Positions 9,342-57,954 of a stretch of 62,438 bases of DNA are shown piece after piece (position 1 is the first letter of the stretch; every line of letters begins with the position of its first letter). The stretch comes from a virus: positions 1 to 62,438 of IMG/VR virus record IMGVR_UViG_3300050821_004048, one strand, 5' to 3'. The notes beneath the pieces were generated by a model. It ran no database searches. It had not been told where the DNA came from and saw only the letters and a list, made by a program, of their open reading frames with translations. A program made the translations under genes and the position numbers.

Positions 9342-9343
9342 TG

Positions 9344-12940: not shown

Positions 12941-12957
12941 GGAAGAGATGAGATCAG

Positions 12958-14736: not shown

Positions 14737-15197
14737 TCACCAACCACAACTATCGAGTGGTCGTCTGGATTGATCCGGGTAAAGACACCGGTTGGGCTAT
14801 ATACGATTTCCTAACTCACCGGTTTTCCAGTGGCGAAGGGGATTTCTTCACCGTCGGAGATATGCTCCAGGATCTTCTATGGGTTCATTCGACACATGCC
14901 GCCATAGGTTGTGAAGCATTCCTTGTCACCCCCACAGGAAGTCAGACCGCAGATCCTGAATACAGCCTGAAGACCATCGGAATGGTGGAATGGCTATGCC
15001 ACAGGAACAGTGCCACGCTTCTACCAGAAGTTCCATCGTCCAGTCGTAATCTCGGCCGTGATGGAGGTAAGCGGGAGAAACTTGACTGGTACAGGCCAGG
15101 CAAAGGCCACGCCAACGATGCGACAGCCCATCTTTTGGCATGGCTCCTACGAGAACATCAGCTTCCGAAGCATCTGATGGAAAAGCTCTTCGCATGA
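14724..15197 (+). CDS. RuvC-like Holliday junction resolvase
   Basis: 157 residues from a GTG at 14724 that overlaps the polymerase stop. The RNase H-like fold shows an Asp in WIDPGKDTGW (Asp17), a Glu in IGCEAFLVT (Glu64) and a C-terminal KGHANDATAHLLAWLL with Asp132 and His136, the usual D...E...D/H layout. Such small RuvC-like enzymes cut branched DNA before packaging or during recombination. It sits between polymerase and helicase, which fits a replication-recombination role. Confidence 0.82.
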   Translation: MGEVITNHNYRVVVWIDPGKDTGWAIYDFLTHRFSSGEGDFFTVGDMLQDLLWVHSTHAAIGCEAFLVTPTGSQTADPEYSLKTIGMVEWLCHRNSATLLPEVPSSSRNLGRDGGKREKLDWYRPGKGHANDATAHLLAWLLREHQLPKHLMEKLFA

Positions 15198-15248
15198 TGA
15201 CCTTCCCGTGGTAGGGTAGATCAGTACCGACCAGGAAGGACTAAGGAA

Positions 15249-17249
15249 TTGACCCTCGCCGAACGCGTGGACAATGTCATCCACATCACCACCTCTTACC
15301 AGGAACGACATCTCACTGCACAGATTCCTGGCGCCAATTTTTCCAAGGATCTGAACGTCTGGAAGGCCCCTCTTAGTTGGGCTACCTGCGTGGCGATGCG
15401 AGGTGTGTTCAAGAAGAATCTGGAAATAGGTCCGATACTGGCCGAGTGGTCCTGGAATGTGTGGAACACACGCATCAATCCGGCCAATTCCATGCGCAAC
15501 GCACTGGAGTTGGAGGACTACGGCCATTCCGAATTGAACGATATTGAAGAAGGCCACACACTCAAGCTGTTCCCGTATCAGCAGGTTGACGCTGAATTCA
15601 TGGTGGTGAATAGGCGCGCCCTCTTGGCCAACCCTCCAGGGCTCGGCAAGACGGGTGCCACCATCCGTACTCTTCAGCTGCTCAAGGCACGAGGAGAGAA
15701 TCCCTACCCAGCTGTCATCATCTGCCCGAACTCTCTGAAGTTCACGGTGTGGCAAGAAGGGTTCCAGCAGTGGGCCCCTGAAGTGTCCGCAGTCGTCATC
15801 GACGGTACTCCTGCCAAGCGTCGCAAGCAGCTGGCAGCGGCCAAGGATTGGGCTGCCTCGAATGACACAGTCGTGATCCTCAACTGGGAAGCCGTACGCC
15901 TGCATTCACGTCTCGCCCCGTACGGGAACATCGCCCTGACCGATGCCGAGACGGCTCCCAAAGAACTGAACAGTCTGGGCCACAAGACTGTCATCTTCGA
16001 TGAGGCCCACAAGATGAAGGACCCGGCGGCCAAGCAGACGCGGGCAGCCTGGTACGTGGCGCACCAGGCCACTAACCGCTACGCGTTGACCGGCACGCCT
16101 GTGGCGAATGACATCAGCGATATGTGGGGTATTCTCCACGCGATCGAACCCACGTGGTTCCCGTCCAAGACCAAGTTCATCAGCCGGTACGCGGCGCTGT
16201 CGCACAACTACTTCGGTGGTGCTGAAGTTGTTGGTCTCAATGCGGTGACTCAGGACGAGTTGTTCGCCATTGTCGATCCCATCATGCGTCGGTTGCCCAA
16301 AGAGGCTGCACTCCCCCAGCTTCCGCCCAAGCTGCCTGTTCAGTATCGGCACACGCCGATGACGCCCAAGCAGCAGAAGGCGTACGACCAGATGCGCGAC
16401 ATGATGATTGCGCAGTTGAATGAGATCCTGGTTGCCCCCAACCCGTTGTCCAAGCTGACGCGCCTGCTCCAGTTCGCTTCGGCTTCTGCGGAAATCAGTG
16501 AAGTGAAGATTAGGACATCTGTTGAAGAATTCCATGTCACTCTGACGAGCAAGGATATTCAGGCCATGCTCAATGAACACGGTGATGAAATTCTCTTGTT
16601 CGAGGACATGATGTTCTCGGCTATTCGTAAATATTTCCGAGCCAGTGACAAGCGACGGCCCAGGTTCCTTAGAGCTGAACTCAAGTTCGAGGCAGGTCAG
16701 AGGGTAGCTCTCTTCCGAGAGGTGAAGGAGGAATACCAAGACGTCCTTCTCACCGATCCGTCCAGCAAGGTGGACGACATGGTGGAGCTGCTGGACGAGA
16801 TGGGTGAGGACTCTCTCGTGGTCGGTGCGGTCTCCCGGCAGCTCATCGAGATCGCAGCCAGGCGCCTTGACAAGCTGAAGATCCCCCATGGCCTGGTGAC
16901 TGGGGCACAGACTCCTCTGGAGCGCCAGCAGGCCGTCAAGGACTTCCAGGACGGCAAGACGCGGGTTATCCTTCTGACCCTGGGGGCGGGCGCTGAGGGC
17001 CTCACCTTGACCCGTGCTGACACCATGCTTTTTATGCAAAGATCTTGGTCAGAAATTCAGAATGCTCAGGCGGAAGATAGAATTCACCGGATTGGTTCAG
17101 AACATCATTCTCAGGTGCGGATCATTGAGCAGATCACGCCGGACAGTGTGGAAGAGAACAAGCGCTCCCTGTTGGAAGGCAAGCAGATGCGCATGGAAGA
17201 AGTCGTACGGGACGCCGAATCTTTGCTGAAGCTGCTGGGAGCTAAGTGA
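15249..17249 (+). CDS. SNF2-type DEAH helicase/ATPase
   Basis: 666 residues from a TTG at 15249, after AGGAAGGACTAAGGAA. Motif I is PPGLGKT (129-135), motif II VIFDEAHKMKD (248-258), motif III YALTGTPVAND, and the second lobe ends with motif VI AEDRIHRIGSE, typical of SNF2-like enzymes such as HepA/SMARCAL1-type remodellers. The first 100 residues look like a small N-terminal domain of the kind found in SMARCAL1/HARP-type proteins (ERHLTAQIPGANFSKDLNVW). It probably remodels forks or anneals DNA in replication. It overlaps the next gene by four bases (GTGA). Confidence 0.93.
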   Translation: MTLAERVDNVIHITTSYQERHLTAQIPGANFSKDLNVWKAPLSWATCVAMRGVFKKNLEIGPILAEWSWNVWNTRINPANSMRNALELEDYGHSELNDIEEGHTLKLFPYQQVDAEFMVVNRRALLANPPGLGKTGATIRTLQLLKARGENPYPAVIICPNSLKFTVWQEGFQQWAPEVSAVVIDGTPAKRRKQLAAAKDWAASNDTVVILNWEAVRLHSRLAPYGNIALTDAETAPKELNSLGHKTVIFDEAHKMKDPAAKQTRAAWYVAHQATNRYALTGTPVANDISDMWGILHAIEPTWFPSKTKFISRYAALSHNYFGGAEVVGLNAVTQDELFAIVDPIMRRLPKEAALPQLPPKLPVQYRHTPMTPKQQKAYDQMRDMMIAQLNEILVAPNPLSKLTRLLQFASASAEISEVKIRTSVEEFHVTLTSKDIQAMLNEHGDEILLFEDMMFSAIRKYFRASDKRRPRFLRAELKFEAGQRVALFREVKEEYQDVLLTDPSSKVDDMVELLDEMGEDSLVVGAVSRQLIEIAARRLDKLKIPHGLVTGAQTPLERQQAVKDFQDGKTRVILLTLGAGAEGLTLTRADTMLFMQRSWSEIQNAQAEDRIHRIGSEHHSQVRIIEQITPDSVEENKRSLLEGKQMRMEEVVRDAESLLKLLGAK

Positions 17250-18187
17250 CCGAGTTCAGTAACAGCGCCATCAAAACTTTCAAGACCTGCCGCCGCAAGT
17301 ACTGGCTGACATACGTTCGCAAGTTCACCGTCAAGCCCAGCAAGCGGATTCCGCATGGCGTTGCTGAACTCGGTACGCGTGTCCACCTAGCGCTGGAGGC
17401 GTACTACGGATACAACCTGGATCCACTGGCGGTACTGAACCTGGTGTACCAGTGGGCCGTTCAGGAGTATCCGAATTTCGCTGAAGACCTCACCAAAGAA
17501 CATGCCTGGGCTGCCGTCATGACGGAGGGCTATCTTCAGTGGTCGTCCGAGAACGGTACGGATGTCGGTCTGGACGTCATCGCCACCGAGCGCATTGTTT
17601 CACGTGAAACCGTGCTGCCGGACGGTCGTGCCGTCTCCCTGGTAGGCAAACTGGATCAGACAATCCGACGCCAGTCCGACGGGGCTATTCTGACGCGCGA
17701 CTGGAAGACCGTCGGCACGCTCACCAAGGCGAACGCACTTCTGCGTGACGAGCAAATGCGCTTCTACACTATGCTTCAGGCATTGAGCGCCCGTGAGTCG
17801 GGTGAGCGGTCCACGGGCGTTCTCTACACCATGCTGCTCCGGTCCAAGCGAACCGCACGCGCCAAAGGCCCGTTCTACGAGCAGATCGAAGTCTCGTTCA
17901 ACCGGCACGACTTGAACAGCATGTGGCTGCGTAGCATCGAGACGGTACGGGAGATCCTTGATTTCACCGCACGTCTTGAGAACGGGGAGGACCACCGTTC
18001 CGTCGCTTACCCTAATCCGGATATCCACTGCACTTGGTGCCCGTTCGTATCTGTGTGCCATTTGGCAGACGACGGATCAAGATTTGAAGACGCTCTGTCA
18101 TACGAGTTCTCCCCGGGAGACCCCTGGGCTTATTACGGAAACGAACTGATTGACAAAGTCTTGGCAGCGTTCGATAGACATAGATGA
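17246..18187 (+). CDS. RecB/Cas4-like PD-(D/E)XK nuclease with probable Fe-S cluster
   Basis: 313 residues from a GTG at 17246. An N-terminal SAIKTFKTCRRKYWLTYV is followed by GTRVHLALEAYY, the catalytic LVGKLDQTI and LTRDWKT (Asp and the D-x-K pair), and a C-terminal HCTWCPFVSVCH. The first Cys (in FKTCRRKYW) together with the last three match the four-Cys iron-sulphur cluster of Cas4/AddB-like nucleases. It likely makes 3' single strands for the RecA-like protein at 18698. Confidence 0.9.
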   Translation: MTEFSNSAIKTFKTCRRKYWLTYVRKFTVKPSKRIPHGVAELGTRVHLALEAYYGYNLDPLAVLNLVYQWAVQEYPNFAEDLTKEHAWAAVMTEGYLQWSSENGTDVGLDVIATERIVSRETVLPDGRAVSLVGKLDQTIRRQSDGAILTRDWKTVGTLTKANALLRDEQMRFYTMLQALSARESGERSTGVLYTMLLRSKRTARAKGPFYEQIEVSFNRHDLNSMWLRSIETVREILDFTARLENGEDHRSVAYPNPDIHCTWCPFVSVCHLADDGSRFEDALSYEFSPGDPWAYYGNELIDKVLAAFDRHR

Positions 18188-18234
18188 CCCAGTAGGGTAA
18201 AGTCGTAAATAGACTTTCTCACTGGAGGTGTCTG

Positions 18235-18705
18235 ATAGCCGGACGTACCTGTATCCCGGGATGCACCTGTGGAAGGCACCGTGGAAAGGATTTCACGGGC
18301 CACAGTTACACCAGCAGGCACAAGCATGTTTATCGTGCTCGTGGAAAAGCCAGTGAATATCCCTGCATCAAGTGCAGTAAACCAGCTCGTGAATGGTCTC
18401 GTATACATGATCGTGATGGAACTGACCCACACGCAGACTATATGCCTATGTGTGTGAAATGTCATCGACATTACGATGAATGGGGCAAGAACATCAGTGA
18501 AGTGAAGAAACGCTATTGGGCAGGAATACCTGTTGAAGAGCGTAACAAATCACCAGAAACCAGATCCAAAAACTCTGAAGCCCAGAAAACCAGATGGGCC
18601 AATATGGATCCGGATAAGAAGTCAGAGATTTCCAAGAAGATAAGTGAAAGCAACAAGCGAACCAAGCGGTTGAACAAGAATAGGGAAAACACTTCTAGTG
18701 AGTGA
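18235..18705 (+). CDS. HNH endonuclease-like protein with NUMOD3-like tail; ATA start proposed
   Basis: 156 residues if read from ATA 18235, which has GGAGGT five bases upstream; no ATG, GTG or TTG occurs in frame before ATG 18442, yet the codons from 18235 clearly encode a Cys-rich domain. That domain has RTCIPGCTCGRH, then YPCIKCSKPAREWSRIHD and MPMCVKCHRHYDEW, a four-Cys zinc site around an HNH-type core. The tail (SKNSEAQKTRW...SEISKKISESNKR) has the short KxxS-type repeats seen in NUMOD3 motifs of homing endonucleases. It is more AT-rich than its neighbours and separates two recombination genes, so it is a likely mobile insertion. The start codon is uncertain. Confidence 0.7.
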   Translation: MAGRTCIPGCTCGRHRGKDFTGHSYTSRHKHVYRARGKASEYPCIKCSKPAREWSRIHDRDGTDPHADYMPMCVKCHRHYDEWGKNISEVKKRYWAGIPVEERNKSPETRSKNSEAQKTRWANMDPDKKSEISKKISESNKRTKRLNKNRENTSSE

Positions 18706-19438
18706 AGACCATTTCGGCCTCAACATGATCGTGTATGGAAAATCCAAGCAAGGAAAGTCGTTTCTCGGAGACACCACTCCAGCCCCACGGCTGGTCTTGG
18801 ATGCTGAAATGGGAAGCCGGTTCACTCCCAGCAAGAAGATTGTCTGGGATCCGGTGATGTACGCTCCTCCGGTTCCTGACGGAACCTGGGACACAGCCAT
18901 CGTTTATGTACGTGATTATCAAACCGTACTGAAGGCGTATGAGTGGTTGAACAGCGGACAGCACCCGTTCAAGTCAGTCGTTCTCGACTCAATTTCTGAG
19001 ACGCAACAGCGTTGCGTAGATGAAATTGCCGGATCCGACATCATGAAGACGCAGGATTGGGGGACCTTGCTTCGAAAGGTGTCCGAACTGGTGCGCAATC
19101 TTCGAGACCTCACCACCCACCCAGTAACTCCACTGGATTCGGTCATCCTCATCGGTATGGCCAAGCGGGATGATGACGGATGGCGCCCATTTGTTCAGGG
19201 TTCCCTCGCTACGGTACTCCCCTACCACGTGGATTGCTGCGCATGGCTCGAAGTGGTGGCCGGTGAGGACGGGGTTCCGGTACGGCGTTTGTTCGTCGGA
19301 CCACTTCCCGGATATCTCACCGGAGAGCGAGTAGGAGGCCGACTCGGACCTTACATCGACAACCCGAATATCACGGATATGCTCCGCATGATCCGTGGCA
19401 ACGAAGACACGAACATCGAGACGGAGAAGACTGACTAA
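18698..19438 (+). CDS. RecA-like ATPase, Sak4/RAD55-type
   Basis: 246 residues from a GTG at 18698 that overlaps the HNH stop. Walker A is YGKSKQGKS (13-21) and Walker B is SVVLDSIS (93-100). The length and minimal core match the Sak4 single-strand annealing and strand-exchange ATPases of phages. It is followed immediately by the SSB-like gene (ATG at the stop), so the two probably act together on single-stranded DNA made by the 17246 nuclease. Confidence 0.85.
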   Translation: MSEDHFGLNMIVYGKSKQGKSFLGDTTPAPRLVLDAEMGSRFTPSKKIVWDPVMYAPPVPDGTWDTAIVYVRDYQTVLKAYEWLNSGQHPFKSVVLDSISETQQRCVDEIAGSDIMKTQDWGTLLRKVSELVRNLRDLTTHPVTPLDSVILIGMAKRDDDGWRPFVQGSLATVLPYHVDCCAWLEVVAGEDGVPVRRLFVGPLPGYLTGERVGGRLGPYIDNPNITDMLRMIRGNEDTNIETEKTD

Positions 19439-44342: not shown

Positions 44343-47174
44343 TTACTTGTTGAGCGTGGGAAGTCCGCTCATCTTGCTGAGCTGTGCCCAGGCAGCCTCC
44401 CGCTGCTCCGGGTCGGGACTTGTGCGCCACAGGTGGCGCATATCATCCATCATGGCCAGCTGAGCACGCTCCGCGTTCTCAGCGACGGTCCGGACACCCT
44501 CCGGGATACCGGAAATCGCCTTATTGGCTGTGATGTTGTTCTGTGCGACGCCCCGGAAAGGGGCTTCGCGAGGATCGGCGAGATCACCCATGGCATCGAC
44601 AATCGCCTTGAGTTCCGTGAGCTGCTTGACAAGGTCTTCTGTGGCTTCCGCCACAGCCGACTTCACCAGATCAGGACTGATCCCGCCGGAAGTCTTGGTG
44701 ACAACCGGTTCATCGGCCGACTTGATTACCAGAGGAGTCTCACCCAGACGGGCACGGGCCTCGTCCAGTGTGATCTCTCCAGCCCATACGGCCTTCTCCA
44801 ACTCCTTGCGGAGCTTCTTCTCCGACTTCGCCACCTGCACGGTTTCCTCCGACTTCGAAGCCCCCACAGGAAGGGGTACGGGACGCTCTCCTGTCGGAGA
44901 CTGTCCACCCATTCCGGGGCCGTCCATCGGGCAGATGTCCGGGAAGGTCTGGGCAATGTGGTCGTGCATCGCAGCCATGGCCGAGCGAGCTACTTCACGC
45001 TCCGCGTTGCGGTAGTACGTACGACTCATACCTGGTGGAATCGGAGCGGCTTCGATGACAGCCGAATTCTTGTTGGACGGACTGTCTTCTGCCTGCCCCG
45101 CCGTAATCGGACCGCGATCGAAGTGAGAGGCACTCAAGTCACTGACTGGCACATGGGCGGTGTTCGAACCATCGTGGCCGAAACTGACCCGAGCCTGCCC
45201 GGCAGTGATGATCGGACGGCGGAATCGAGAAGCCGATAGTTCAGTCGGGGACGGGAAGCTCCCCGAACCAGAATTGGCGTCCTGGAACGACTTGTAGGCG
45301 GTTGTACCGATGTCCGCCACGATCTCTGGGTCAGCACTCTTGAGAGACACCGCGTGCTGCCACAGCTGAGCTGCGGCACGGGCTTCATCCATTGGAGCAC
45401 TGACCGCACTGTCCAGAGCCTTCTGCTGCCAGATACTCGTGTCGATGGTCGACAGCGAATATGTGGGGTGCGCCTTGGCAGCGATTTCCGGGTGATAAGC
45501 CGAGCACAGGAGATCGTGGATAGCGCCCATGTCCCCAGGAGCGCCGATCGACTTCAGACGACTGGACGCCTTCATCTCGACCTCCCTATCCGGAGTGGTC
45601 GGCAGTCCGGCGTCGTGCTCCAAGGATTCGATTGCTGCACCATCTGGCTCACGGTGCGCGGGAACCGGCTCAATGTCCGCTGCTCCCGTACCGACGGCTC
45701 CACCATCGGGGGTGGGCTTGCTGCTCTTCTCGGAAGCCATAGCCTTCTTGCCGCATCCCGAGCAGAACTTGTCGCCTTTGCCCATCTCCTTGCCGCAGCC
45801 TGTGCACGACATATCGTCGCCCTTGGTGATGCCGTCTTCAGTGTCGGCTACGGACTCGGCATTCTTCGTGGCAAGAGGGAGCTTGGCTCCGCACTTCTCG
45901 CACTTGCGAACATTGGTGTCGGCGTCGTATCCGGTGCCGCACTCCTTGCAGTCTTTCATGCCCTTGGTGGCATTGTCATCACTGTCGTCGCCGCTGTCCG
46001 AGTCGTCATCGTCATCGTCGGAATCATCGTTTTCAGATCCGCCGAACGGCTTGGCGGGCTTCCCGCCGAACGGCTTTCCCTTTTCGATGGTCTCATCGAC
46101 TTCTTCGACGGACTCTTCGCTCTTACCAGTCATGTCCTTCTTCCAACTTTCCGGCAACTCGGCCTCGAACGAGTCGCCTAGACGACGAGCGATACGGATG
46201 ATGTTTTCCTTCAACTGCTCGGACGAGTAGTTGTCGGATCCGGCTCGACCGATGGAAGAGGCAGCATCGGACACATCCCCAGGTGTGACAATCGGGAACG
46301 ATCGATCACGTCCGGCGAAGTTGGCGGAAGGAATCTTGTCCCGATCGACTCCACCGCCGACATTGGGATCCATCTGGCGCTTTTCCGCCAACTCACGGTG
46401 CTGGAGGAGCTTGGCAAGGTCCGCCGGACTGAAGGAGACGGATACATCCTTCGGAAGTTCGACAGAAACGGTGTCGGCAGACTTCTCAGCGTGGATTCTG
46501 ACGCCACTGGCAGGAAGGCTCGGATTGGTCAGGTGGGTACCAATCTTGACGGCAAGGTCATCCACGCCGTTTTCCGGCATAGAGGTGCCCTGGAGATCAA
46601 TAGTAACAGTATCTTCCGACTTCGTCAGCAAGTCGCTGTCACCAAACATCTTGCCGGTGAATTCAGCGTTACCCGTCTTGTCAGCCTTCGCGATTTCCAG
46701 GAAGCAAGAACGATTGGCCGGGGAGTCAACAAGGCTTACTTCTACGATTTTTCCGGCCTTGATGATTCCACCGCGAGCCTTCCCTGAAGGATCCCGTTCC
46801 ACCACAGGACGAGCAATTCCGATGGAGTAAGCCCGCAGGTGACCCTTCTTGACCATAATCTTTGCGGTCGGCTCGTCTACTGCGGCCTTGACCCAGTGGG
46901 CCCCGTCACCGTCGCGGTTGACTTCGACCTTCACACCAGATCCAGCAGGCATAGATGAAGCGTTGTGCTGTACACGAAGAGCCGGAGATGATTCCAGCCA
47001 TTCCTGAAGTGCTTTTCCTGAGAACGCCGAATCGACTACCTGCTCGTCTGTGTCAACTTCAGGTGTCGTCGCCTTCCCGTAGACATAGACAGTACCGTCT
47101 TCCCCCTCTTCCCACTTCATGATGGGGAACGAAGTTCGGATGATCTCGCTACTGTCGGTCAGTGTGGTTGCCAC
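44343..47174 (-). CDS. Capsid maturation protease with scaffold-like and zinc-ribbon regions
   Basis: 943 residues from a GTG at 47174 (TAGGAGGGGCCGC upstream). The first 160 residues are an HK97-type prohead protease: VYGKATTPEVDTDEQVVDSA, RVQHNASSMPAGSG with the likely catalytic His70, GHLRAYSIGIARPV with the likely Ser117, and EVSLVDSPAN. Then a long polar region (scaffold-like), an acidic patch (residues 382-400, Asp/Ser-rich) and two zinc ribbons (Cys409/412/425/428 and Cys457/460/471/474). The last 450 residues are mixed, with repeated SDLSASHFDRGPITAGQAED-like segments. It cleaves capsid and scaffold during head maturation. Confidence 0.92.
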   Translation of the reverse strand: MATTLTDSSEIIRTSFPIMKWEEGEDGTVYVYGKATTPEVDTDEQVVDSAFSGKALQEWLESSPALRVQHNASSMPAGSGVKVEVNRDGDGAHWVKAAVDEPTAKIMVKKGHLRAYSIGIARPVVERDPSGKARGGIIKAGKIVEVSLVDSPANRSCFLEIAKADKTGNAEFTGKMFGDSDLLTKSEDTVTIDLQGTSMPENGVDDLAVKIGTHLTNPSLPASGVRIHAEKSADTVSVELPKDVSVSFSPADLAKLLQHRELAEKRQMDPNVGGGVDRDKIPSANFAGRDRSFPIVTPGDVSDAASSIGRAGSDNYSSEQLKENIIRIARRLGDSFEAELPESWKKDMTGKSEESVEEVDETIEKGKPFGGKPAKPFGGSENDDSDDDDDDSDSGDDSDDNATKGMKDCKECGTGYDADTNVRKCEKCGAKLPLATKNAESVADTEDGITKGDDMSCTGCGKEMGKGDKFCSGCGKKAMASEKSSKPTPDGGAVGTGAADIEPVPAHREPDGAAIESLEHDAGLPTTPDREVEMKASSRLKSIGAPGDMGAIHDLLCSAYHPEIAAKAHPTYSLSTIDTSIWQQKALDSAVSAPMDEARAAAQLWQHAVSLKSADPEIVADIGTTAYKSFQDANSGSGSFPSPTELSASRFRRPIITAGQARVSFGHDGSNTAHVPVSDLSASHFDRGPITAGQAEDSPSNKNSAVIEAAPIPPGMSRTYYRNAEREVARSAMAAMHDHIAQTFPDICPMDGPGMGGQSPTGERPVPLPVGASKSEETVQVAKSEKKLRKELEKAVWAGEITLDEARARLGETPLVIKSADEPVVTKTSGGISPDLVKSAVAEATEDLVKQLTELKAIVDAMGDLADPREAPFRGVAQNNITANKAISGIPEGVRTVAENAERAQLAMMDDMRHLWRTSPDPEQREAAWAQLSKMSGLPTLNK

Positions 47175-48040: not shown

Positions 48041-48283
48041 TCAGTCGTCATCGTCATCAATAGATGAGGCCCCATCCCACCAGGACGGGGCTTCACCCAC
48101 CTTGAGTTTGGCTTCCCAGATACCTTCACGATCCTGGAGAACGTACCCGTAGTTGGTCATCACGGATCCGAAACGGACATCTACCTTCTCGCCAAGTTCC
48201 ACCAGCTGATTGAACGCATCAGCGATAACTCCTAGAAGAGCAGTGGGAGTCAGTTCAATCAGTGTGACGATTTCTTCAGGCAT
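48041..48283 (-). CDS. Small acidic protein after the portal
   Basis: 80 residues from ATG 48283 that overlaps the portal stop (ATGCCTGA). Helical (IVTLIELTPTALLGVIADAF, NQLVELGEKVDVRFGSV) then a beta stretch and a short, strongly acidic end of Asp residues. The position directly after the portal suggests an assembly factor or connector helper. No family recognised. Confidence 0.62.
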   Translation of the reverse strand: MPEEIVTLIELTPTALLGVIADAFNQLVELGEKVDVRFGSVMTNYGYVLQDREGIWEAKLKVGEAPSWWDGASSIDDDDD

Positions 48284-50990
48284 CGGCACTCTCTTCGTTC
48301 TTCTTGGGAAATTGCGAAGAATGCGTTTCGTCCCAAGGACCACTATCGGATTTCACAAAACCGACGTAGGCAGTCACCGGCTTGTCCAATTCCTTGTACG
48401 CCAGGGTCCGGTGATGACCATCGATCACCTTGATCTTACTGTCGCCCGGCTCTTGAACAGCAATGACCGGATGCAGATGACCCTTGCCGTTCTTGATTTC
48501 CTTGGCAAACTGATCGACCTTGTCGTCCTCGTGAGAAGCTGCCCAGGAATCTACGTCACCGAAATCAATACGATCCAGTGGAATCTGTACCGGGCCGATC
48601 CACCTGGCGTTCTTGACCCACCCCAAAACCTTCTCCGGATAGTTGGTCCGAAGCTGATTCAGAATGTGTTCGGCATCTACCGGATTGGGGTCGGAGAAGT
48701 CTGATGCACCCTTGTTGGTCCATATATCGTTGACATCATGAGGATGCTGGACAGGCCCTCCACCGCCAGCAGGAACAATCTCCTGCCATGTCAGCTCGTC
48801 GCTCCAGAACTCTTGGCCGTTGGTATCCACCAGACGTCGGCGCTTCAAAGCGTCCACCGCTTCAGCGATATCACTGCCGCCAGTCACCAGAAGATTGATG
48901 ATCTCCATGGAATCCTCGTCCAGATGCTTGGCTGCCCAAGTGGACACATCGCGACCCTTGCGAATGTGCCGGGCCATCGCCTCCAGTTCCGACAACACAG
49001 CTCGGGTCTGCGAAGCATCGCGCAGCGTCACGGACTTGGTAGAAGGCTTGCGGCCGACTGCACTGACACTCGAACCGGACCCGACAGCCTGACTCGCACC
49101 AGGCTTCTTCCGAGTAGTCGCACCAGCGGCTGGGGCAGCCTGTGCTCCTCCGCTCACCGTGGATCCGGAAGGAGCACTAGGAGGAGCCTTTCGGGGGGCA
49201 GGAGCTGGTGGTGCAGCGGCCGGAGTAGCGCCTGTAGAGGTCACTCCAGGGGAAGACTGAACCGATGGAACATCGCCGTCACTGGCACCGGAATCCGGCT
49301 GAAGACTCGTATCTGGAACCAGAAGCGGACCTTCCTGATAGCCGGTCTGACGGGCCATTGTCGCCTCGGTGAGCGGAATGAACCCAGCCCCTGGTGTAGC
49401 CCAACCCGGCTCTGCGGTCTCAACAAGACCCCAGGGCTGAAGATTGAACCGCTCGCGGGCTTCATCGATCGACCGAAGTCCGGCACTGACCTGGGTGACC
49501 ATGGTCTTGGTCAGTGTCTCTTCGTCCTCGGTGTCTTCAAGACCCTCGAATACGAACCTCATATCATCTTGCTGGCATACATCCTGCAAGATGTAATTCA
49601 TGATGTCGGTGATGTACTTCAGAAGAGGCTTGGTGGCCTTGCGGGTCTGAAGATCCTGTGCGGCCTGTGCCATCTGGCGAGCCGCACCAGTCGACATCGT
49701 GGTGGCGACCTTCGGGGCGATACCCAGTTCCATGGGGGCCACATCAAAGGCCATGCATACTTGATTCATGACGACTTCGTCAAACTGGTCAGCCAAAGTG
49801 TGCTCACGCTGAGGCATCACCTTAGAGTCAGCGGGAAGAACAATGATCTTGTGGTGCCAAGCGGGGTCGCCAGCAACCGCGTTCAGAGCGTCCTGGAGTT
49901 CTCGGATCTGGTTCGGTGTCATGTTGTTGTTGGCACCACCCGGGGAAATGTACACCGCCGGAACAGTGCCTTCCCGGAAGTAATCCAGTTGATATCCCTG
50001 CTTCTGGAGACCTGACATCACCGGAACCAGTGCGCGTTCGATTGGCGGGAAACCGTACGGAGTCCAGGTACGAGGAACGGTGGGAAGATACAGCAACTGG
50101 TCAGAACGGTATTTGTTCGTCTCCGCTCCGGTCAGGCCACCTTCCTTGATGTCTCGCTCCATGACGATCGACATCAGGTCGGTGCGAGGCACACCATACA
50201 GGTATTGCTGGTATCCAGGAGCCGGAGGGCGCGGCGTCGCTCCGTGAAGGTCGACCAGCGGCCGTATAGTGGCGCCGTTGATGAGTTCCAGGCAATCCAG
50301 GTCAGACCCTAGAAGTCCCTTCCTCTGGCCTCTACCCCACTTTTTCCGTACAACTAGGGACAACGCATCGAATACCAGAACTTCTTCAAGAAGAGCATCC
50401 ATGAAGGAGTTCCACGTGAAGTATTCAGGATCCGGCCTGCGGAAGAACCGGATAGCCTCTGCCCGGCGTTCTCCGAAATCTTTCATCTTCGCGTGACTGT
50501 TATGCATAGCCTTGGACGCGTCCCGCGTCGGCATGACGTCCCACTCCAGCCCGATGATCTCGGATTTCCGGAGCTGAATACAAGCACGGGCTACCGAATA
50601 CAGATCAGCAAGTGATCGAAGGGTATTGAAGTCGACCAGCTTGATTCCTTCACTACCGGGCTGCCCGGTGGGAAGGTTCCATCCGACCTGATACTCGTAC
50701 CGGCGCGCTTCCGCAAAGTCCGATCCCTCCGGTGGTGCATCCACTGGTACTGGAAGAATCGGGCTGAAGGGACCGAACGCACCATCGGTGAAGTCCCGTG
50801 GCGGCCTTGGTAGTGTCCCCCGATAGGCATTAGTCCATGACCCGTTGGAACTTCCGCTGTCCAGTTGTCCAGCAAGCGGAGAGTAGTTACCCGCATATGG
50901 AGCCTGAGACAACCCCTGCGTTGCTGGAGACGGCCGGGCTCCGCCCGGAATGGCCTTCACGCTGGAAATGATGGAGCCACGCGACGCCAT
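48276..50990 (-). CDS. Portal protein fused to a ParB-like domain
   Basis: 904 residues from ATG 50990 (AAGGAGGTGGTC upstream). The portal core spans about residues 80-520, with FDALSLVVRKKWGRGQRKGL, LLYLPTVPRTWTPYGFPPIE, PAVYISPGGANNNMTPNQIR and FDVAPMELGIAPKVATTMST. A disordered Pro/Ala-rich linker follows (about 590-660). Near residue 800-880 a ParB/Srx-like domain appears (VQIPLDRIDF, FAKEIKNGKGHLHPVIAVQE, VIDGHHRTLAYKELD). The DGHHR block matches the ParB-like signature. The portal is the DNA gate; the extra domain may bind nucleotide or DNA. The 5756-6574 ParB-like protein is separate and smaller. Confidence 0.93.
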   Translation of the reverse strand: MASRGSIISSVKAIPGGARPSPATQGLSQAPYAGNYSPLAGQLDSGSSNGSWTNAYRGTLPRPPRDFTDGAFGPFSPILPVPVDAPPEGSDFAEARRYEYQVGWNLPTGQPGSEGIKLVDFNTLRSLADLYSVARACIQLRKSEIIGLEWDVMPTRDASKAMHNSHAKMKDFGERRAEAIRFFRRPDPEYFTWNSFMDALLEEVLVFDALSLVVRKKWGRGQRKGLLGSDLDCLELINGATIRPLVDLHGATPRPPAPGYQQYLYGVPRTDLMSIVMERDIKEGGLTGAETNKYRSDQLLYLPTVPRTWTPYGFPPIERALVPVMSGLQKQGYQLDYFREGTVPAVYISPGGANNNMTPNQIRELQDALNAVAGDPAWHHKIIVLPADSKVMPQREHTLADQFDEVVMNQVCMAFDVAPMELGIAPKVATTMSTGAARQMAQAAQDLQTRKATKPLLKYITDIMNYILQDVCQQDDMRFVFEGLEDTEDEETLTKTMVTQVSAGLRSIDEARERFNLQPWGLVETAEPGWATPGAGFIPLTEATMARQTGYQEGPLLVPDTSLQPDSGASDGDVPSVQSSPGVTSTGATPAAAPPAPAPRKAPPSAPSGSTVSGGAQAAPAAGATTRKKPGASQAVGSGSSVSAVGRKPSTKSVTLRDASQTRAVLSELEAMARHIRKGRDVSTWAAKHLDEDSMEIINLLVTGGSDIAEAVDALKRRRLVDTNGQEFWSDELTWQEIVPAGGGGPVQHPHDVNDIWTNKGASDFSDPNPVDAEHILNQLRTNYPEKVLGWVKNARWIGPVQIPLDRIDFGDVDSWAASHEDDKVDQFAKEIKNGKGHLHPVIAVQEPGDSKIKVIDGHHRTLAYKELDKPVTAYVGFVKSDSGPWDETHSSQFPKKNEESADA

Positions 50991-51065
50991 GACCACCTCC
51001 TTACTGGTATACGAATGTTGTCATCTCCACTGATAGACCGGGTCATCCTACCTCTGACAGTGGCG

Positions 51066-54000
51066 TTATCCGATAGCTGACCAGAACAGACGAGGACTTC
51101 CTGAGATCGAATTGCTGGAAACGGTCAGCGGAGAAGGTAGTGATGTGGTGAACGGTCCCGCCTGCTGACAGAATCGGTAGTTCGTCGTGGTCAGTCCGAC
51201 GTTTTGCGTCTGGTTGTCAGCAGGAGTAGCGCGTCGATCAATGGTCGGGTTGGTGGAGGCGTTGAAGAAAAACCCGACCCAGTAGAGTCCTGCCGGGCCA
51301 GTGAATGGGGTGGTCCATGTAATGGTCTGAAGCCCAACAGATGCGGTGACAACAGAATCTATGCCCTTGGACGCGCACAATGTTCCGGCAGAATTGTAGA
51401 GACCGATCCAGTTCTGTCCTGCGGTAGCAGTGTTGCCGACAACCTGGGTTGAAATATACACCTTGGTAGTTGTGAAAGTCTGTCGAGGCTGCATTGCGAC
51501 TAGATAGAGAACGCCCTGTGACGGGATGGTGGTGGAAGAGGCGTCAGCAAAGATCGAATCGTACGTCCAGGCAGCCAAATTGGAGTCCGATGGTTCCCAA
51601 CTCGCTCCCGGCTGAGTAACGACAGTAGACAACCCCTGAGCCGAAACACCGATACAATTGATAATCTGGATTCCACTGCCAGTCGGCGGGACACTCGTGA
51701 AATTGCTGGTCGTACCGCCATTTGTCAAATCGCAGTTGCTGATCGTAACATTGGTGACAGTGGAATCGAAAATCCTGATTCCGTACGCCTGAGTCTTGCT
51801 CCCACCCTGATTGTCGCCGATCCGACATCCAGTGATGATAATATCAGCGGACGACTGGAATATGATGATTCCGGAATCTCCGGAAGTCAGTTGACTGGAA
51901 TTAAACACCCGAGCACCGGTGATAGTACCGTCAGTAGAACTAGAAGCACTGAATTTTCCGATGCTGATACCCTGCTGACCGGCATTGTGTACCTGAGTAC
52001 CGGTGATGCTGAATCCCTGAACATTGTTTAGGTGAATTCCGTCGATTGCGGTTGTGTCGATCACACCGCCGTTGAAAGAGATATCTACAGCGGCTGTTCC
52101 TACGCTGCCACCAGATGTTCCACCAACAACGATGAATCCGTATCCGACATTGTAGCAATCGACGTTGTTAACACTGTTGTGCTGATTGGAGCCGTTCAAG
52201 TTGACCATGTAGACGCCAGTGGAGCCGGTCTTGGTCAGATTGGAGACAGTGCAGCCAGTGACATTGCCATGCAAAGCATCACGGAAAAGAATTCCATTGT
52301 TGCCCGCACCATTACTGATGCCTATAAAAGTACATCCACTGACTTCGGTATAGACGGTACCGCTGCCGATTTCGATTCCGCAGTCACCGAAATTTCTTAC
52401 CGTACATCCGGTTACCACTGTGCCGACTACAGACCCAGTCACTGAAATGCTGGTTGTGGATCCCAAATTCTCACTGAGGAAAATGGCATCTGCATCTGTG
52501 GTGTCAATCATGCAATTGTTGATGTTATTGCCGTAGCAGCTGTAGGCATCACCATGATTGAGACCGATGAGGATTCCATACCCTACGGTTGTAATCTGAC
52601 AATCCTCCACCACACATCGGACAGCACCGCGAAGAATGATCCCAGCATTAGTAGACGGAGTGTTCTGTACCGTGACGTGAGAAATCTGGGACCAGGTGGT
52701 GTTGATCAGATAGATTGCAGCATTGGATGTAGCAGAAGAACCGGAACGGTTTCCATCGATGGTGAGACCACGCATGGTGAATCCGGTAATACCGGTTGCA
52801 GTGATAACACTGTTGGTGGAGCTGGCTGGTCGCTGAATCGTCGCCGGTCCGTACCAAGTCTGCCCAGATAGAGGGGCCAGGGAATCCGCTACATAGGTAC
52901 CCTGCGGGAAATACAGAGTCCCCCCTGTACCAGCCGATGTAATAGCCGTGCCGATGTTAGTCGCGTCTGTCGCCGACACTCCCGTGGCGGTGGCCACGGT
53001 TGTCACTCGTTGGTACCGGGCATCCAACTGGCCCAGAGGCAGATCATCGTACATCACGTACCAGATAGATCCGGAAACAGAGTACTGGAGATATACAGAC
53101 TGACTAACCAAAGACAGGGTAAGAGATGTAGCTCCGCCGGATTTGTTGAATACATCGCTTCCACCGCAAACTACTGTCACTGTATTGGAAGCAGAGGTAG
53201 TGATCATCTTTACGCCCACGACAGTAAAATCAGCAGGAGCCGTAGGAAGAGTAATCGTGATATTTCCTGAGGTAGCATCCACCGGAACGAAATCTCCGGC
53301 TACCACGTTGTAGTTGGCTACCTTGACCGAAGTAGGTGTTACCAGACCAGCCCACACCCGAGTTGATGATGCAGTTCCGCCCTGTGCGACAGGGAGAGGA
53401 GATGCAAGGTGCGTTCCCACCACCGTAGGAGACAAGGTGGTTCCACCAATGTCTCCAGCCACTTGAACAGCTCCTACTACACGGGAATCATTTCCCTGCG
53501 TAGCGGTTCCAGCAGAAGATCCGTAGGTTACTGTGAATGTGCGGTTGGCAGATAGATCACCTCCCCCCGACAGGCCAGTACCGGAAATGATCTGCCGAGA
53601 AACCGGAGGATACGCCGCATTGGCTCGTGTTACTTCTGTGGCTATAGAACTGTCTGTGTAGGCTTCAGCATTGGTCTGAGCCGTTGTAGCGGACCCGACG
53701 GCATCAAACGCCGTGGTGTTCTGTACGGCAGCAGTGCCTAGGCCCAGGCTCGTGCGGGCCCCAGCTGCTGTGGTGGCTGCTGTGCCTCCCTGCAATAGAG
53801 GCAGCGGAGAAGACAAGTGGGTGGATAGGATGAGAGGTACGGAATCGGTACCACCGATGTCGCCACCGATCTGTACGCCGTTTCCTCCGAATGGGTGAGA
53901 AGAACCCCACAAACCGGTAGTTTTAGGGCCGTAGTAGATCGTCGTGTCACTGGTGTTCAGATAGAAATCCCCATCAAAACCGATGGAGTTCGATGGTGCT

Positions 54001-54071
54001 CCCACTCCGCTGAGCCAACCACTACCGCGAGGTCCGGGAGTTCCCGCCCCAGATACAACAACCGTGGCCAT
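51066..54071 (-). CDS. Large beta-helix fibre protein (pectate-lyase fold) near the portal
   Basis: 1001 residues from ATG 54071 (GAGGGGGAACC upstream). The N-terminus has a collagen-like GTPGPRGSGW piece and a small FDGDFYLNTSDTTIYYGPK domain, then repeats of a GGD...SPTVVGTHLASPLPVAQGG type linker (two copies). From about 380 a long beta helix starts at GTYVADSLAPLSGQTWYG and runs to about 850 (SDADAIFLSENL-type coils). The last 170 residues are the shared terminal module (QNWIGLYNSAGTLCASKG, LYWVGFFFNASTNPTIDRR). A host-binding or capsid-attached fibre; its place between terminase and portal suggests a head fibre. Confidence 0.78.
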   Translation of the reverse strand: MATVVVSGAGTPGPRGSGWLSGVGAPSNSIGFDGDFYLNTSDTTIYYGPKTTGLWGSSHPFGGNGVQIGGDIGGTDSVPLILSTHLSSPLPLLQGGTAATTAAGARTSLGLGTAAVQNTTAFDAVGSATTAQTNAEAYTDSSIATEVTRANAAYPPVSRQIISGTGLSGGGDLSANRTFTVTYGSSAGTATQGNDSRVVGAVQVAGDIGGTTLSPTVVGTHLASPLPVAQGGTASSTRVWAGLVTPTSVKVANYNVVAGDFVPVDATSGNITITLPTAPADFTVVGVKMITTSASNTVTVVCGGSDVFNKSGGATSLTLSLVSQSVYLQYSVSGSIWYVMYDDLPLGQLDARYQRVTTVATATGVSATDATNIGTAITSAGTGGTLYFPQGTYVADSLAPLSGQTWYGPATIQRPASSTNSVITATGITGFTMRGLTIDGNRSGSSATSNAAIYLINTTWSQISHVTVQNTPSTNAGIILRGAVRCVVEDCQITTVGYGILIGLNHGDAYSCYGNNINNCMIDTTDADAIFLSENLGSTTSISVTGSVVGTVVTGCTVRNFGDCGIEIGSGTVYTEVSGCTFIGISNGAGNNGILFRDALHGNVTGCTVSNLTKTGSTGVYMVNLNGSNQHNSVNNVDCYNVGYGFIVVGGTSGGSVGTAAVDISFNGGVIDTTAIDGIHLNNVQGFSITGTQVHNAGQQGISIGKFSASSSTDGTITGARVFNSSQLTSGDSGIIIFQSSADIIITGCRIGDNQGGSKTQAYGIRIFDSTVTNVTISNCDLTNGGTTSNFTSVPPTGSGIQIINCIGVSAQGLSTVVTQPGASWEPSDSNLAAWTYDSIFADASSTTIPSQGVLYLVAMQPRQTFTTTKVYISTQVVGNTATAGQNWIGLYNSAGTLCASKGIDSVVTASVGLQTITWTTPFTGPAGLYWVGFFFNASTNPTIDRRATPADNQTQNVGLTTTNYRFCQQAGPFTTSLPSPLTVSSNSISGSPRLFWSAIG

Positions 54072-54080: not shown

Positions 54081-54461
54081 TCAGAACTGTGAAGCAACGA
54101 GTCCGGCGAAAAGTGAACCATTGACCAGGGCTGTAGCATCAGCCAGATTCTGATCCATCCACAGGGTGTAAACGTACATCTGTTGAGAAAGACTGGCCAT
54201 CGCCGATGCCGAAACAGTAACCAGAAGTGTTGATGTTGAGGTCGTAACAGTGATGAATCCTGATGCAGTGGACGATGTACTATTGACACTGACTACTGGA
54301 ACTGTGATTCCTGTCTGGCTAGGATCCGTACGAATCACGAACTCAAATGTCTTGTTCGTGATATCCATCAACGTTCCATCGTCGTTGTAGAACTGATACG
54401 TCTGGTTGAGCTGGGAGCCGATAGCGGCAGCCAGTGAAACCGCACTAGGAAGATTACCCAC
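54081..54461 (-). CDS. Small fibre-base protein
   Basis: 126 residues from a GTG at 54461 (GGGAGCAATCA upstream). Reads like the N-terminal domain of baseplate upper proteins (QLNQTYQFYNDDGTLMDITN, KTFEFVIRTDPSQTGITVP), with beta strands and a C-terminal VYTLWMDQNLADATALVNGS. Probably a base for the large fibre protein at 51066-54071, which follows nine bases later. Confidence 0.62.
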   Translation of the reverse strand: MGNLPSAVSLAAAIGSQLNQTYQFYNDDGTLMDITNKTFEFVIRTDPSQTGITVPVVSVNSTSSTASGFITVTTSTSTLLVTVSASAMASLSQQMYVYTLWMDQNLADATALVNGSLFAGLVASQF

Positions 54462-54537: not shown

Positions 54538-54873
54538 TCAGAGCAGATTGAGAACAGTCAACCCATGCGGACCGGCAGTAGCCTCTTCGTCCTCCATGGC
54601 AATAGCCTGGAAGTCAATCGTGTGTGTTCCGACTGAGAGCGTGGCATTGTACATCAGAGGAGCGTCCGGCGATCCCTTGATGACCTCAGTCCCGTCGATG
54701 GTGAAGCGGATTCGGGAATTTCTGCCATTGAGATTCAGAACATACCCCTGAATCATCATGACAGTCCCGGTACCGACAACAGTATCCGGAGTCCCGATGA
54801 GAGAAGTCCAGCTGTCGTCGTTAAGGGTGACATCCTGAACGGAATCAAAAGCCACAACGGTAAGAACGGCCAT
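54538..54873 (-). CDS. Small beta-sandwich protein
   Basis: 111 residues from ATG 54873 (GAGAGGAATTGAACC upstream). Reads as a single beta sandwich: VLTVVAFDSVQDVTLNDDSW, TGTVMMIQGYVLNLNGRNSR, RFTIDGTEVIKGSPDAPLMY and SVGTHTIDFQAIAMED. It is probably a carbohydrate-binding or fibre-tip domain made as a separate protein. It follows the large coiled-coil gene and is closed by a strong terminator. Confidence 0.65.
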   Translation of the reverse strand: MAVLTVVAFDSVQDVTLNDDSWTSLIGTPDTVVGTGTVMMIQGYVLNLNGRNSRIRFTIDGTEVIKGSPDAPLMYNATLSVGTHTIDFQAIAMEDEEATAGPHGLTVLNLL

Positions 54874-54886: not shown

Positions 54887-57031
54887 TCAGACCGACATGC
54901 GGGCATCGGATCCGCCCTGGTCGCTGCTGTCGTAGTAGCGGCGGCGACGCGGCGAGTACACGTTCTGCTCGGCTTCCACGTAGTCCCGGACATTGACGGT
55001 GATGTTTCCACCAGCAGACTTCTTCTCGCAATGATCGCAGCACGGATCCTTGCGGCACGGGTCAGGACGGCAGGACTCCAGCACATCGATCTTGGTCTTG
55101 AGCTGTGTCTCTGTTGCTAGACCACGGGCGTATCGGCGCTCGGCACCCTCTTCGTCCAGGTGACGGATCAGGTCGCGGGTACGACCCTCGTCATCACGCG
55201 AACGGCGCTCGAAGTTCTGCATCTCGAACAGGTTGCGGTCAGCCGTGGAGCGGATGAGATCGTGGGTACGATCCTCACGGTCACGCAAGTAGAGACGGGT
55301 TTCCAGCTCGTTCCGTGTGCCATCCGCACGAGTACGCTCGGCTTCGCGAGCCACCTCACCAGCAAGACCCTGAAGACGTACCTCAGTGCGACGATCGTGG
55401 TCGGAGAGGGCCTCAGCGGTCTCTTCGAACCCGTGACGAACCACGCCATCAGTGCGGCGCTCGGAGGCGTCAATGCGGTTGTCTAGACGTCGTTCGGTGT
55501 CACCGAAGTGAGTGGCAGTCCGACGCTCGAAGTCGGAAACACTCTCCGAGATCTCTTCGAGGTTGTGAGTGACGTCCTTGTCGATCTGGTGGCCCAGTCG
55601 ACGTTCGGCCGCGTCCAGATTGTGTCCGGAGCGACGCTCGAACTGGTCCAGATTGTGGGTTTCGCGACGCTCGGCGTCGTCCGCGTTCTTGGTAAGACGA
55701 CGCTCGGCGTCATCACCATTCTTGGTGAGACGACGCTCAGCATTGACTACATCTGATGTGATACGGCGTTCGCCACTGACAACATGGTCGGTAACACGAC
55801 CTTCGAACTGGCCGTTGTCGCGCGTCATCCGGTTCTCGGTATCCGAGAGCCGGGCCTCAATCGCGTCATTGCCCGTACGAACGGTGTTGTTTACCCGACG
55901 CTCCGCGTCGTTTGTGCGGTCAGCACCGCGACGCTCGGCACCATAGATGTCACGCTCGATATTGCGCTGAGCATCGCCAACAGCTTCGGCGGTCTCCTCG
56001 CCTACGTGATCGATCTTGTTGCCGACGCGGCGCTCGGTGTCGGCGACATTCTTGCCCAGGTCGCCGAATGCTTCGGAGTTCTCTTCTCCGTAGTGCCCCA
56101 GGCGATTATCGATGCGGCGCTCAGCGTCACTCAGGTGCTCATTGGTGTGAGCAAATCCGTGAGAAGTCTCGCGACGTCCACCATCGACGTTGTTGTCCAG
56201 CCAACGGGCGTTGGCGTCCTGGCCACCGTGCAGGTATCGGGTGTCCGCGTTCTGGGTGCTGCTCAGCCAACGGGCGTTCTCGTTGACGCTGTCACCGACA
56301 TCATCGATTTCGCGGTCGAGGTGGCGGGTATCCGCATTCTGACCGCTACGCAGCCAGCGGGCGCTGTCACCGACCTTGTCGCCAACTTCATCGATCTCAC
56401 GATCCAGCCAACGGCCCTGATCGCCGACCTGGCGGCTGAGATCCCGCTGTCCGCCATCAAGCCAGCGGGCATTGGCATCTACACGACCGTCAGTCTGGCG
56501 CTGACCCCGCTCCAGGTATTCGGTACTGTTGCGGACGTCGCGAGAGACGTCGTCAATCTCGCTGTCCAGCCAGCGAGAGTTCGCCTCCACCCGGTCATCG
56601 GTGCGGTGCTGACCGCGCTCCACACCAAGGAATCCATGATCTACATTACGATCTGTAGCAGCCTGTCCGCGCTCTACGCCCAGGAATCCGTGGTCCACAT
56701 TGCGGTCAGTAGCGGCCTGACCCTTGGCCAGCCCACTCACGCCGTTGTACAGATCGCGCTGAATGCTGTCCTGTCCACGGCTCAGGAACTGCGTGTCATT
56801 GTAGGACTGACGCTGGATATTCTGAGAATTCTCGTCAATGTCCTCAGCCAGGTTGCGCTGACCGCGTTCGACACCGAGGGCTGACGCCTCTACTCGGTGG
56901 TCGGTTACCCGCTGGCCGTTCTCCAGGCGAGCGAAGTTCTCGTTGTAGTCGTCGTGGTGGCGACGGTATCCATCGGCAGGATACGTGGTGACTACTGGCA
57001 GCATGGGGGTGGCGGCATTTACATCTACCAT
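54887..57031 (-). CDS. Giant hendecad-repeat coiled-coil protein with Cys cluster
   Basis: 714 residues from ATG 57031 (AAAGGAG four bases upstream). Residues about 100-650 are repeats: an exact 18-residue unit twice (AATDRNVDHGFLGVERGQ, 106-123 and 124-141), then 18-residue units beginning RWL, then 11-residue units such as DAERRLTKNGD and DDAERRLTKNA (about 430-490). Spacings of 11 and 18 (11 + 7) are the classic right-handed coiled-coil pattern. At the C-terminus a Cys cluster (C654, C659, C664, C665, C668) precedes a basic YSPRRRRYYDSSD region. The two 18-residue units are the same protein but clearly differ in DNA at silent positions. It could be a head or tail fibre or an internal scaffold. 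Upstream 57032-57300 may belong to it. Confidence 0.75.
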   Translation of the reverse strand: MVDVNAATPMLPVVTTYPADGYRRHHDDYNENFARLENGQRVTDHRVEASALGVERGQRNLAEDIDENSQNIQRQSYNDTQFLSRGQDSIQRDLYNGVSGLAKGQAATDRNVDHGFLGVERGQAATDRNVDHGFLGVERGQHRTDDRVEANSRWLDSEIDDVSRDVRNSTEYLERGQRQTDGRVDANARWLDGGQRDLSRQVGDQGRWLDREIDEVGDKVGDSARWLRSGQNADTRHLDREIDDVGDSVNENARWLSSTQNADTRYLHGGQDANARWLDNNVDGGRRETSHGFAHTNEHLSDAERRIDNRLGHYGEENSEAFGDLGKNVADTERRVGNKIDHVGEETAEAVGDAQRNIERDIYGAERRGADRTNDAERRVNNTVRTGNDAIEARLSDTENRMTRDNGQFEGRVTDHVVSGERRITSDVVNAERRLTKNGDDAERRLTKNADDAERRETHNLDQFERRSGHNLDAAERRLGHQIDKDVTHNLEEISESVSDFERRTATHFGDTERRLDNRIDASERRTDGVVRHGFEETAEALSDHDRRTEVRLQGLAGEVAREAERTRADGTRNELETRLYLRDREDRTHDLIRSTADRNLFEMQNFERRSRDDEGRTRDLIRHLDEEGAERRYARGLATETQLKTKIDVLESCRPDPCRKDPCCDHCEKKSAGGNITVNVRDYVEAEQNVYSPRRRRYYDSSDQGGSDARMSV

Positions 57032-57300
57032 ATACTCCTTTGTTTCACTGAGGTTCTGATCAGCGGTGCTAGCGGACTGCTCTGGCTGAAAAGAATGTTC
57101 CGCAGAAGGGGAAGCTTTACCAAGGCGGGTCCAGGCGGCTGTACCCGAAGTGTTCTGAGAACAGCTGAATACTTCATTAGTCGCAGTATTAACCCAAACA
57201 GACCCGACAGCATAACCGTGATCGACGTCATCGGTTGCCGTAGGGTCTGAGGTTGCTGTCAGGTTAGAACTGACGGTATCCAGATATCACTCTCAGTCAT
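57032..57300 (-). pseudogene. Apparent N-terminal domain of the coiled-coil protein, out of frame with its start
   Basis: Upstream of ATG 57031 the same frame stays open for about 84 codons and reads like a small carbohydrate-binding-type domain (TDDVDHGYAVGSVWVNTATN, SGTAAWTRLGKAS). It has no ATG, GTG or TTG in frame. A separate ATG at 57300 (overlapping the previous stop) opens a frame that reads MTESDIWIPSVLT and then stops. One missing C in the ACCTGACA run would join them to make a protein of about 804 residues. Either sequence error, a programmed shift, or decay. Confidence 0.55.
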
Positions 57301-57595
57301 CGTTGCTACTGGAGCTACTGACTTCAGCGACATCGGGATCACTGAAGTCAACAGGACTAAATCCTGGCGGTAGAGTTCTAGGCCATCTTGACACATTGAC
57401 CTCGGTCGGGTCAAGTCTACCGAAGTGCCATGTGACCTGACAATAGAGTTCGAAGTTCTGTACGAACATGTCAAGATCCTCCTTCTCCGTCCAGGAGAAT
57501 GGAGGACTGAGTCTGATCTCGGTCTTGGTAACAGGATTGAGGGCGAACATCACCCTGGTACCTAGCTCCGCAGACACATCACATACGAACCTCAC
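57293..57595 (-). CDS. Small protein, tandem paralogue of 57592-57954
   Basis: 100 residues when started at the GTG at 57595, which overlaps the upstream stop and has AGAGGAAGAC before it; a longer reading to 57712 would overlap the neighbour by over 100 bases. Its core ALNPVTKTEIRLSPPFSWTE and FELYCQVTWHFGRLDPTEV matches VINPITRSVIKIDPPFHFST and VEAYCLAAWNLGYLDPEEI in the upstream gene. A duplicated gene; function unknown. Confidence 0.66.
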   Translation of the reverse strand: MRFVCDVSAELGTRVMFALNPVTKTEIRLSPPFSWTEKEDLDMFVQNFELYCQVTWHFGRLDPTEVNVSRWPRTLPPGFSPVDFSDPDVAEVSSSSSNDD

Positions 57596-57954
57596 GCGCT
57601 GTCTTCCTCTGTCTTTCCGGGGCTTGACATAGATGGTGAGCGTGTCACCCACCCGTACGGAGAACTGATCTCCTCCGGGTCCAGGTAACCTAGATTCCAT
57701 GCTGCTAAACAATACGCTTCAACATGTTCGATGAACGATTCCAACTCTTCGTCAGTACTAAAGTGGAAAGGAGGATCAATTTTGATAACACTTCGTGTAA
57801 TCGGATTGATTACTGATTCCACCCGAGACCAATCGTTTTCGAACATCTTGTAATACGTTTTGCCGTCTGATGAAAACCATTTTATACATTCATCATTCGA
57901 GCACAAACTTATTCCATCAACGTTGTGTCGGCCGTCTGGATGATCTGTTGTCAT
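57592..57954 (-). CDS. Small protein, tandem paralogue of 57293-57595
   Basis: 120 residues from ATG 57954 with an upstream overlap of four bases. The N-terminal 45 residues (GISLCSNDECIKWFSSDGKT) are absent from the copy at 57293. The rest aligns with that copy through the phrases NPIT...KIDPPF and YCLAAWNLGYLDPEE. Position just after the small zinc-type protein and terminase; function unknown. Confidence 0.66.
   Translation of the reverse strand: MTTDHPDGRHNVDGISLCSNDECIKWFSSDGKTYYKMFENDWSRVESVINPITRSVIKIDPPFHFSTDEELESFIEHVEAYCLAAWNLGYLDPEEISSPYGWVTRSPSMSSPGKTEEDSA

Follow-up and report, generated by a model that had tools for sequence, protein, structure and literature searches.

The window analysed here is a stretch of viral DNA of 62,438 nucleotides (IMG/VR record IMGVR_UViG_3300050821_004048). 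The gene under study, which we call the rod gene, has the open reading frame, coordinates and strand that were assigned to it in a preliminary description of the sequence. Its features, and those of three neighbouring genes, are listed below.

57032..57283, minus strand, in-frame N-terminal extension of 84 codons with the motif GYxVGSxWxNTxxxxxF..GxAxW
57035..57041, minus strand, Shine-Dalgarno sequence AAAGGAG of the short form of the rod
54887..57031, minus strand, short form of the rod protein, 714 aa (open reading frame; start backed by AAAGGAG-N3-ATG)
56192..56911, minus strand, 18-residue-repeat part, residues 41-280, period 3.60
56609..56716, minus strand, two identical 18-residue units, AATDRNVDHGFLGVERGQ
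55352..56134, minus strand, 11-residue-repeat part, residues 300-560, period 3.67
55154..55309, minus strand, conserved core, residues 575-626, ELETRLYLRDREDRTHDLIR and following, inside an AlphaFold2 block of pLDDT 78-87
55028..55072, minus strand, Cys cluster, residues 654-668
54977..55006, minus strand, short strand-like motif NITVNVRDYV, of low confidence in the predicted structure
54538..54873, minus strand, 111-aa TNF/C1q-like jelly-roll protein, the candidate knob (AlphaFold2 and VIA)
54081..54461, minus strand, 126-aa protein with a putative BppU-like domain (PHROG 1084, E 2e-5; minor tail protein, E 0.026)
51066..54071, minus strand, beta-helix spike (Pfam Beta_helix, 4e-11)

Relatives of the rod protein are carried by ten further IMG/VR contigs (L001, L005, L007-L011, L015, L019 and L020); the L001 rod is 57% identical to that of the window, and lengths range from 183 residues (L020) to a listed 932 (L007, whose true start may be later). 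Nothing significant was found in the INPHARED phages, including by tblastn of the family members, or in GTDB genomes, and a full-sensitivity profile search detected no rod homologue in phages with related terminases (TurkishDelight, phiAsp2, Intolerant, MT835568, MW202711 and Mwe-JY05). The search for related proteins in actinophages that had been proposed at the outset returned none in cultured actinophages, only uncultivated contigs. The best PHROG match of the rod had an E value of 0.021, and NCBIfam gave no match. Matches to the Pfam apolipoprotein family (E 7e-7; 29.6 bits, below the cut-off of 90) and to Apo A-IV (E 0.003) were obtained, and an apolipoprotein identity was rejected because the former is below the cut-off and the match is compositional. 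As judged by these sequence searches, the rod family is undescribed in Pfam, PHROGs and NCBIfam and occurs, among the databases searched, in uncultivated phages only. The rod may bear some likeness to coiled-coil proteins of gut phages.

Two translation starts may serve the rod gene. The purine-rich motif and the 3 nt before the short-form ATG are kept in L001, L005, L007, L010 and L011, and the rod frame stays open 5' of this ATG to 57283, its upstream limit being a pair of in-frame stops. The extension encoded there matches the L015 N-terminus (tblastn, E 3e-9), with the motif common to L005 and L015, and also matches PHROG 33012 (E 3e-7), where the motif is found close to the N-terminal end of a different large phage protein. 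Because this motif-bearing frame lies upstream of an internal ATG with its own conserved AAGGAG-type site, a long form may exist beside the short one. GTGATATCTG precedes the extension motif in both the window and L005, which makes the CTG at 57281-57283, after a Shine-Dalgarno-like sequence, a possible start codon for the long form. Antisense open reading frames of 366 to over 1000 aa also run across the rod genes, and we rejected them as meaningful since they are accounted for by the presence of only 0-4 TTA/CTA/TCA codons per rod gene. Synonymous shuffles yielded antisense runs of like length for the window, L007, L010 and L015 rod genes; for the L005 rod gene, the antisense run of 691 was longer than in all 200 synonymous shuffles (mean 417).

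The preliminary description placed 11- and 18-residue repeats at residues 100-650 and predicted from this spacing a right-handed coiled coil. The repeats are real, although they set in near residue 40 rather than 100: lag-identity peaks occurred at lags 18, 36, 29 and 54 in residues 41-280 (z 10.1, 8.2, 7.4 and 5.8) and at lags 11, 22, 44 and 33 in residues 281-640 (z 8.8 to 5.2). The coiled-coil periodicity analysis suggested at that time gave a hydrophobic period that rises from 3.60 in residues 41-280 to 3.67 in residues 281-640, with a power (21-32) far above the shuffled 95% level of 7-8, so that a right-handed supercoil is clearly predicted for the 11-residue C-terminal half only, 18/5 = 3.60 being nearly straight. 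In eight family members, a first region with a period of 3.605-3.615 is followed by a second of 3.66-3.675; the L009 and L019 rods have only the 3.60 part, and the L020 rod is too short for either.

Repeat-motif spacings across the family (11, 18, 22, 29, 33, 36, 40, 44, 47 and so on) fall on 11a+18b in 185 of 225 cases (82%, versus 25% in shuffled sequences), and the alignment gaps between the hendecad regions of the window and L001 measure 11 and 22 residues. Since such spacings hold the hydrophobic seam in place, rod units can be gained or lost. The hendecad seam is narrow, with one position per 11 residues about 80% hydrophobic and two at 50-60%; large hydrophobic residues make up only 18% of the hendecad part, and the rod is rich in Arg and Asn. 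One motif that recurs across the family is GQAATDRNVD. The two identical 18-mers (residues 106-123 and 124-141) differ at 11 of 54 bases, all silently, and in 11 of 18 codons, where 10.8 would be expected with independent codons. Silent differences at this chance level indicate that the copies are old and maintained by selection, in agreement with the earlier view that the repeat is not a recent DNA copy.

The C-terminal core (ELETRLYLRDREDRTHDLIR) is nearly invariant across the family, and LYLRDREDRT within it is invariant in all members. Residues 431-626 share 90% identity between the window and L001 even though 21 of 39 fourfold sites (54%) differ, which argues for constraint on the protein and against recent exchange; the terminases of the same pair are 67% identical and differ at 68 of 107 fourfold sites. 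The L010 and L011 rods show a dN/dS of about 0.18 for the core, as against about 1 over the last 40 residues. A motif of the NITVNVRDYV form was found again in all full-length rod relatives. The Cys cluster noted previously lies at residues 654-668, but it is a feature of some relatives only (present in L005, L007, L008 and L019, missing in L009, L010 and L011), and what had been called a basic tail proved to be a RRRRYY patch in a tail of near-neutral overall charge. The rod as a whole is acidic (pI 5.2).

The AlphaFold2 model of the rod (eight sequences; single chain) consists of helices throughout with no globular part, at a pLDDT of 78-87 over residues 540-640 and of 55 on average. We conclude with some force that the rod protein is a long helical rod. 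A predicted globular fold, or absence from virions together with a lack of homologues, had been named as what would speak against a long head or tail filament; the model is all helix, and relatives exist on the ten contigs above. The earlier interpretation is thus supported in part: the protein is predicted to be a long helical filament with homologues, encoded in a virion gene block, and it may belong to the head or the tail. The knob gene, the family-wide core and the in-frame extension at the N-terminus had no place in that description.

The product of 54538-54873 was modelled as an all-beta protein (pLDDT 86.7) that is predicted to have the jelly-roll topology of the TNF/C1q superfamily. 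In VIA-align, TNF/C1q-type trimers, including Pgp3, BclA, BC2L-C lectin, C1q, PRD1 P5 and the phi812 petal, matched it over about 100-110 residues at Z scores of 9.4-12.1, and nearly all of the 50 entries listed were TNF/C1q-like. Foldseek support was weaker than that from VIA (TM 0.4-0.6, modest E-values). If the model is right, this fold matches the tips of trimeric stalks. A separate IMG/VR scan with the knob protein returned five loci, in each of which (5/5) the gene directly follows a rod gene, and two of the contigs concerned, L008 and L009, contain no match to the window major capsid protein (MCP); rod and knob therefore appear to travel together. The L005, L007, L019 and L020 rods have no knob relative on their own contigs, which are fragments. 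In most members, the separately encoded knob protein may form the tip of a fibre, and it would then bind the rod.

The gene order TerS, TerL, two small genes, rod, knob, BppU-like, spike, portal, protease and MCP is conserved in L010, L011 and L015, and parts of it are kept in L005, L007 and L019, so that with the window and L001 the rod gene lies within a packaging/head block in eight contigs. The BppU likeness of the 54081-54461 product is our own reading of the sequence. Conservation of the spike in relatives is limited to the N-terminal ~60 residues, as expected of an anchor. The L009 and L020 rods lie near genes for thioredoxin and a gp63-like RNA ligase (PHROG 562), with no obvious fibre block. 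The window phage also encodes a tape measure protein besides its tail genes. The two small genes before the rod (139 and 120 aa; window 57293-57954) are tandem paralogues that are kept in relatives and gave no family match. At 44343-47174, a prohead protease (Peptidase_S78) is fused to a long stretch that contains zinc ribbons, and the window portal (48276-50996) carries a C-terminal ParB-like domain at residues 824-872 (PHROG 1033, E 4e-8), a similar stretch being visible by eye in the L005 portal.

We consider it rather likely that the product of the rod gene is a fibre shaft on the virion. This reading draws on the helical model without a globular part, the 3.60-then-3.67 order, the synteny, the pairing with the knob, the extension motif and the purifying selection. 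Against it stand the low overall pLDDT of the single-chain model, the four rods without a knob relative, the position of L009 and L020 outside an obvious fibre block, the lack of a receptor-binding domain on the rod chain itself, and a conservation that is strongest internally, near the C terminus, rather than at an N-terminal anchor.

The L009 and L020 neighbourhoods, and a core that stays constant in virions unrelated to one another, as contact with a host factor might require, would also suit a non-virion protein, either a cytoplasmic filament or a host-interaction factor during infection; given the packaging/head block location in eight contigs, the TNF/C1q-like partner and the fibre-type extension, we regard this as improbable. 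Somewhat more doubtful is a scaffold, core or assembly ruler, in which case the helical protein would lie within the procapsid and then be taken out or stay in the head: the head-gene block, the acidic and all-helical character and the ruler-like combination of variable length with constant ends fit it, but the usual slot is already filled by the protease with its long extra region, the family passes between phages that have no MCP in common, and the rod is paired with a TNF/C1q-like protein. It is very unlikely that the rod serves as a conduit for DNA in the manner of the phiX174 H tube, whose alpha-helical barrel is built from hendecads and heptads. H likewise has 11,3 hendecads (PMC7354561) and the rod is rich in Arg and Asn, yet the narrow seam points to a low-order bundle more than to a wide barrel. 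The H lumen has N, Q or R at 18 of 23 positions, with no such face evident in the rod, and the window phage has its own tape measure protein and tail genes. The weak apolipoprotein matches (E 7e-7 and 0.003) might point to an amphipathic helix protein that binds membranes or lipids. For the rod this is scarcely credible, because the score of 29.6 is well below the cut-off (90), 11-residue amphipathic helices give such matches through their composition, and large hydrophobics are so few in the hendecad part. Overall, the scaffold, the non-virion filament and the H-like tube are less likely than a fibre in view of the gene pairing, the spread of the family and the make-up of the seam.

For the fibre shaft, we propose that each chain would run as one nearly unbroken alpha helix for some 600 residues, a length of about 90 nm if each residue adds 1.5 A, and that the chains would oligomerise in parallel, probably as a trimer. 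The first half, with its 18-residue repeats (3.60), would give a nearly straight bundle and the second half, with its 11-residue repeats (3.67), a right-handed winding. Whole 11- or 18-residue units could be gained or lost with the helix phase intact, so that length would vary while both ends are retained. The conserved C-terminal core may set register and assembly, and in most members the TNF/C1q-type protein from the next gene would cap or dock on the rod as a knob. Position in the gene block would suggest attachment at the head or neck, and the fibre might make contact with the host.

Several known systems offer functional likenesses, which we do not put forward as homology. The head fibres of Staphylococcus phages P68 (gp14) and Andhra (gp13) have conserved ends and a variable coiled coil, with 481 and 285 residues (PMC9710869). 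Like the rod family (183 to over 900 aa), they combine a coiled-coil rod of varying length with ends that are conserved; a short beta element at the N-terminus, putative in the rod family, and a virion-gene neighbourhood are further likenesses. No sequence link was found, tblastn of family members against INPHARED giving no significant match. They differ in carrying the receptor-binding domain on the same chain, whereas the window knob has a separate gene, and in a known beta-prism anchor to capsid hexamers, where the rod family shows an optional N-terminal motif; the window rod is also far longer, with 18- and 11-residue repeats. T4 fibritin (wac), the neck whisker, is a long, trimeric, segmented coiled coil of 530 A at the head-tail joint (PMC3004832). 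The gp63-like RNA ligase near the L009 and L020 rods is a weak hint, possibly a coincidence, as the ligase may serve RNA repair; the rod periods of 3.60/3.67 depart from the heptad value of 3.50, and PHROG scans gave no fibritin family match for the rod. The P22/Sf6/HS1 tail needle has a three-stranded coiled-coil shaft with a varying number of repeats, which in Sf6 and HS1 carries a trimeric, TNF-like knob (PMC3741392), but the knob is fused to a heptad shaft, the phages are short-tailed and the needle is much shorter than the window rod. The trimeric coiled-coil adhesin NadA3 shares 11-residue repeats with the rod (PMC6191539), although it is a bacterial adhesin with only two undecads among heptads.

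A more specific and tentative hypothesis, which we hold to be possible rather than probable, is a two-gene appendage cassette that moves between unrelated phages. It would consist of a two-pitch rod, straight and then right-handed, and a separate TNF/C1q-type knob, with its reach tuned by the gain or loss of complete 11- and 18-residue units. Through two translation starts, some of the rods would receive a docking motif at the N-terminus that the others lack. If true, this would be a fibre family with phase-preserving length steps and the knob on its own gene. It would provide a natural series, from 183 to over 900 residues, for relating rod length and supercoil pitch to reach and adsorption, and the constant change from 3.60 to 3.67 would be a clean natural test of coiled-coil theory. 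It would also put a name to a part of many large uncultivated phages, the family being missing from the cultured phage records searched.

The contigs of the relatives hold further features of their own. L001 TerL (6018-8630) has an in-frame, intein-like insertion at the Walker A motif with a LAGLIDADG homing-endonuclease domain (Pfam 1e-6), which the window terminase lacks. In L019 (contig G008), at about 10513-18787, the MCP homologue is in three pieces and the portal match stops at residue 415; several of its virion genes seem to be interrupted by introns, inteins or insertions. L009 encodes a TROVE-domain (Ro60-like) protein at 2807-4414 (Pfam 2e-15). In L008, the element TGCTACRYTACTC occurs on one strand at 13 sites from 1491 to 15097 (13 matches versus 0.01 expected), often ahead of genes, and it resembles an extended -10 promoter.
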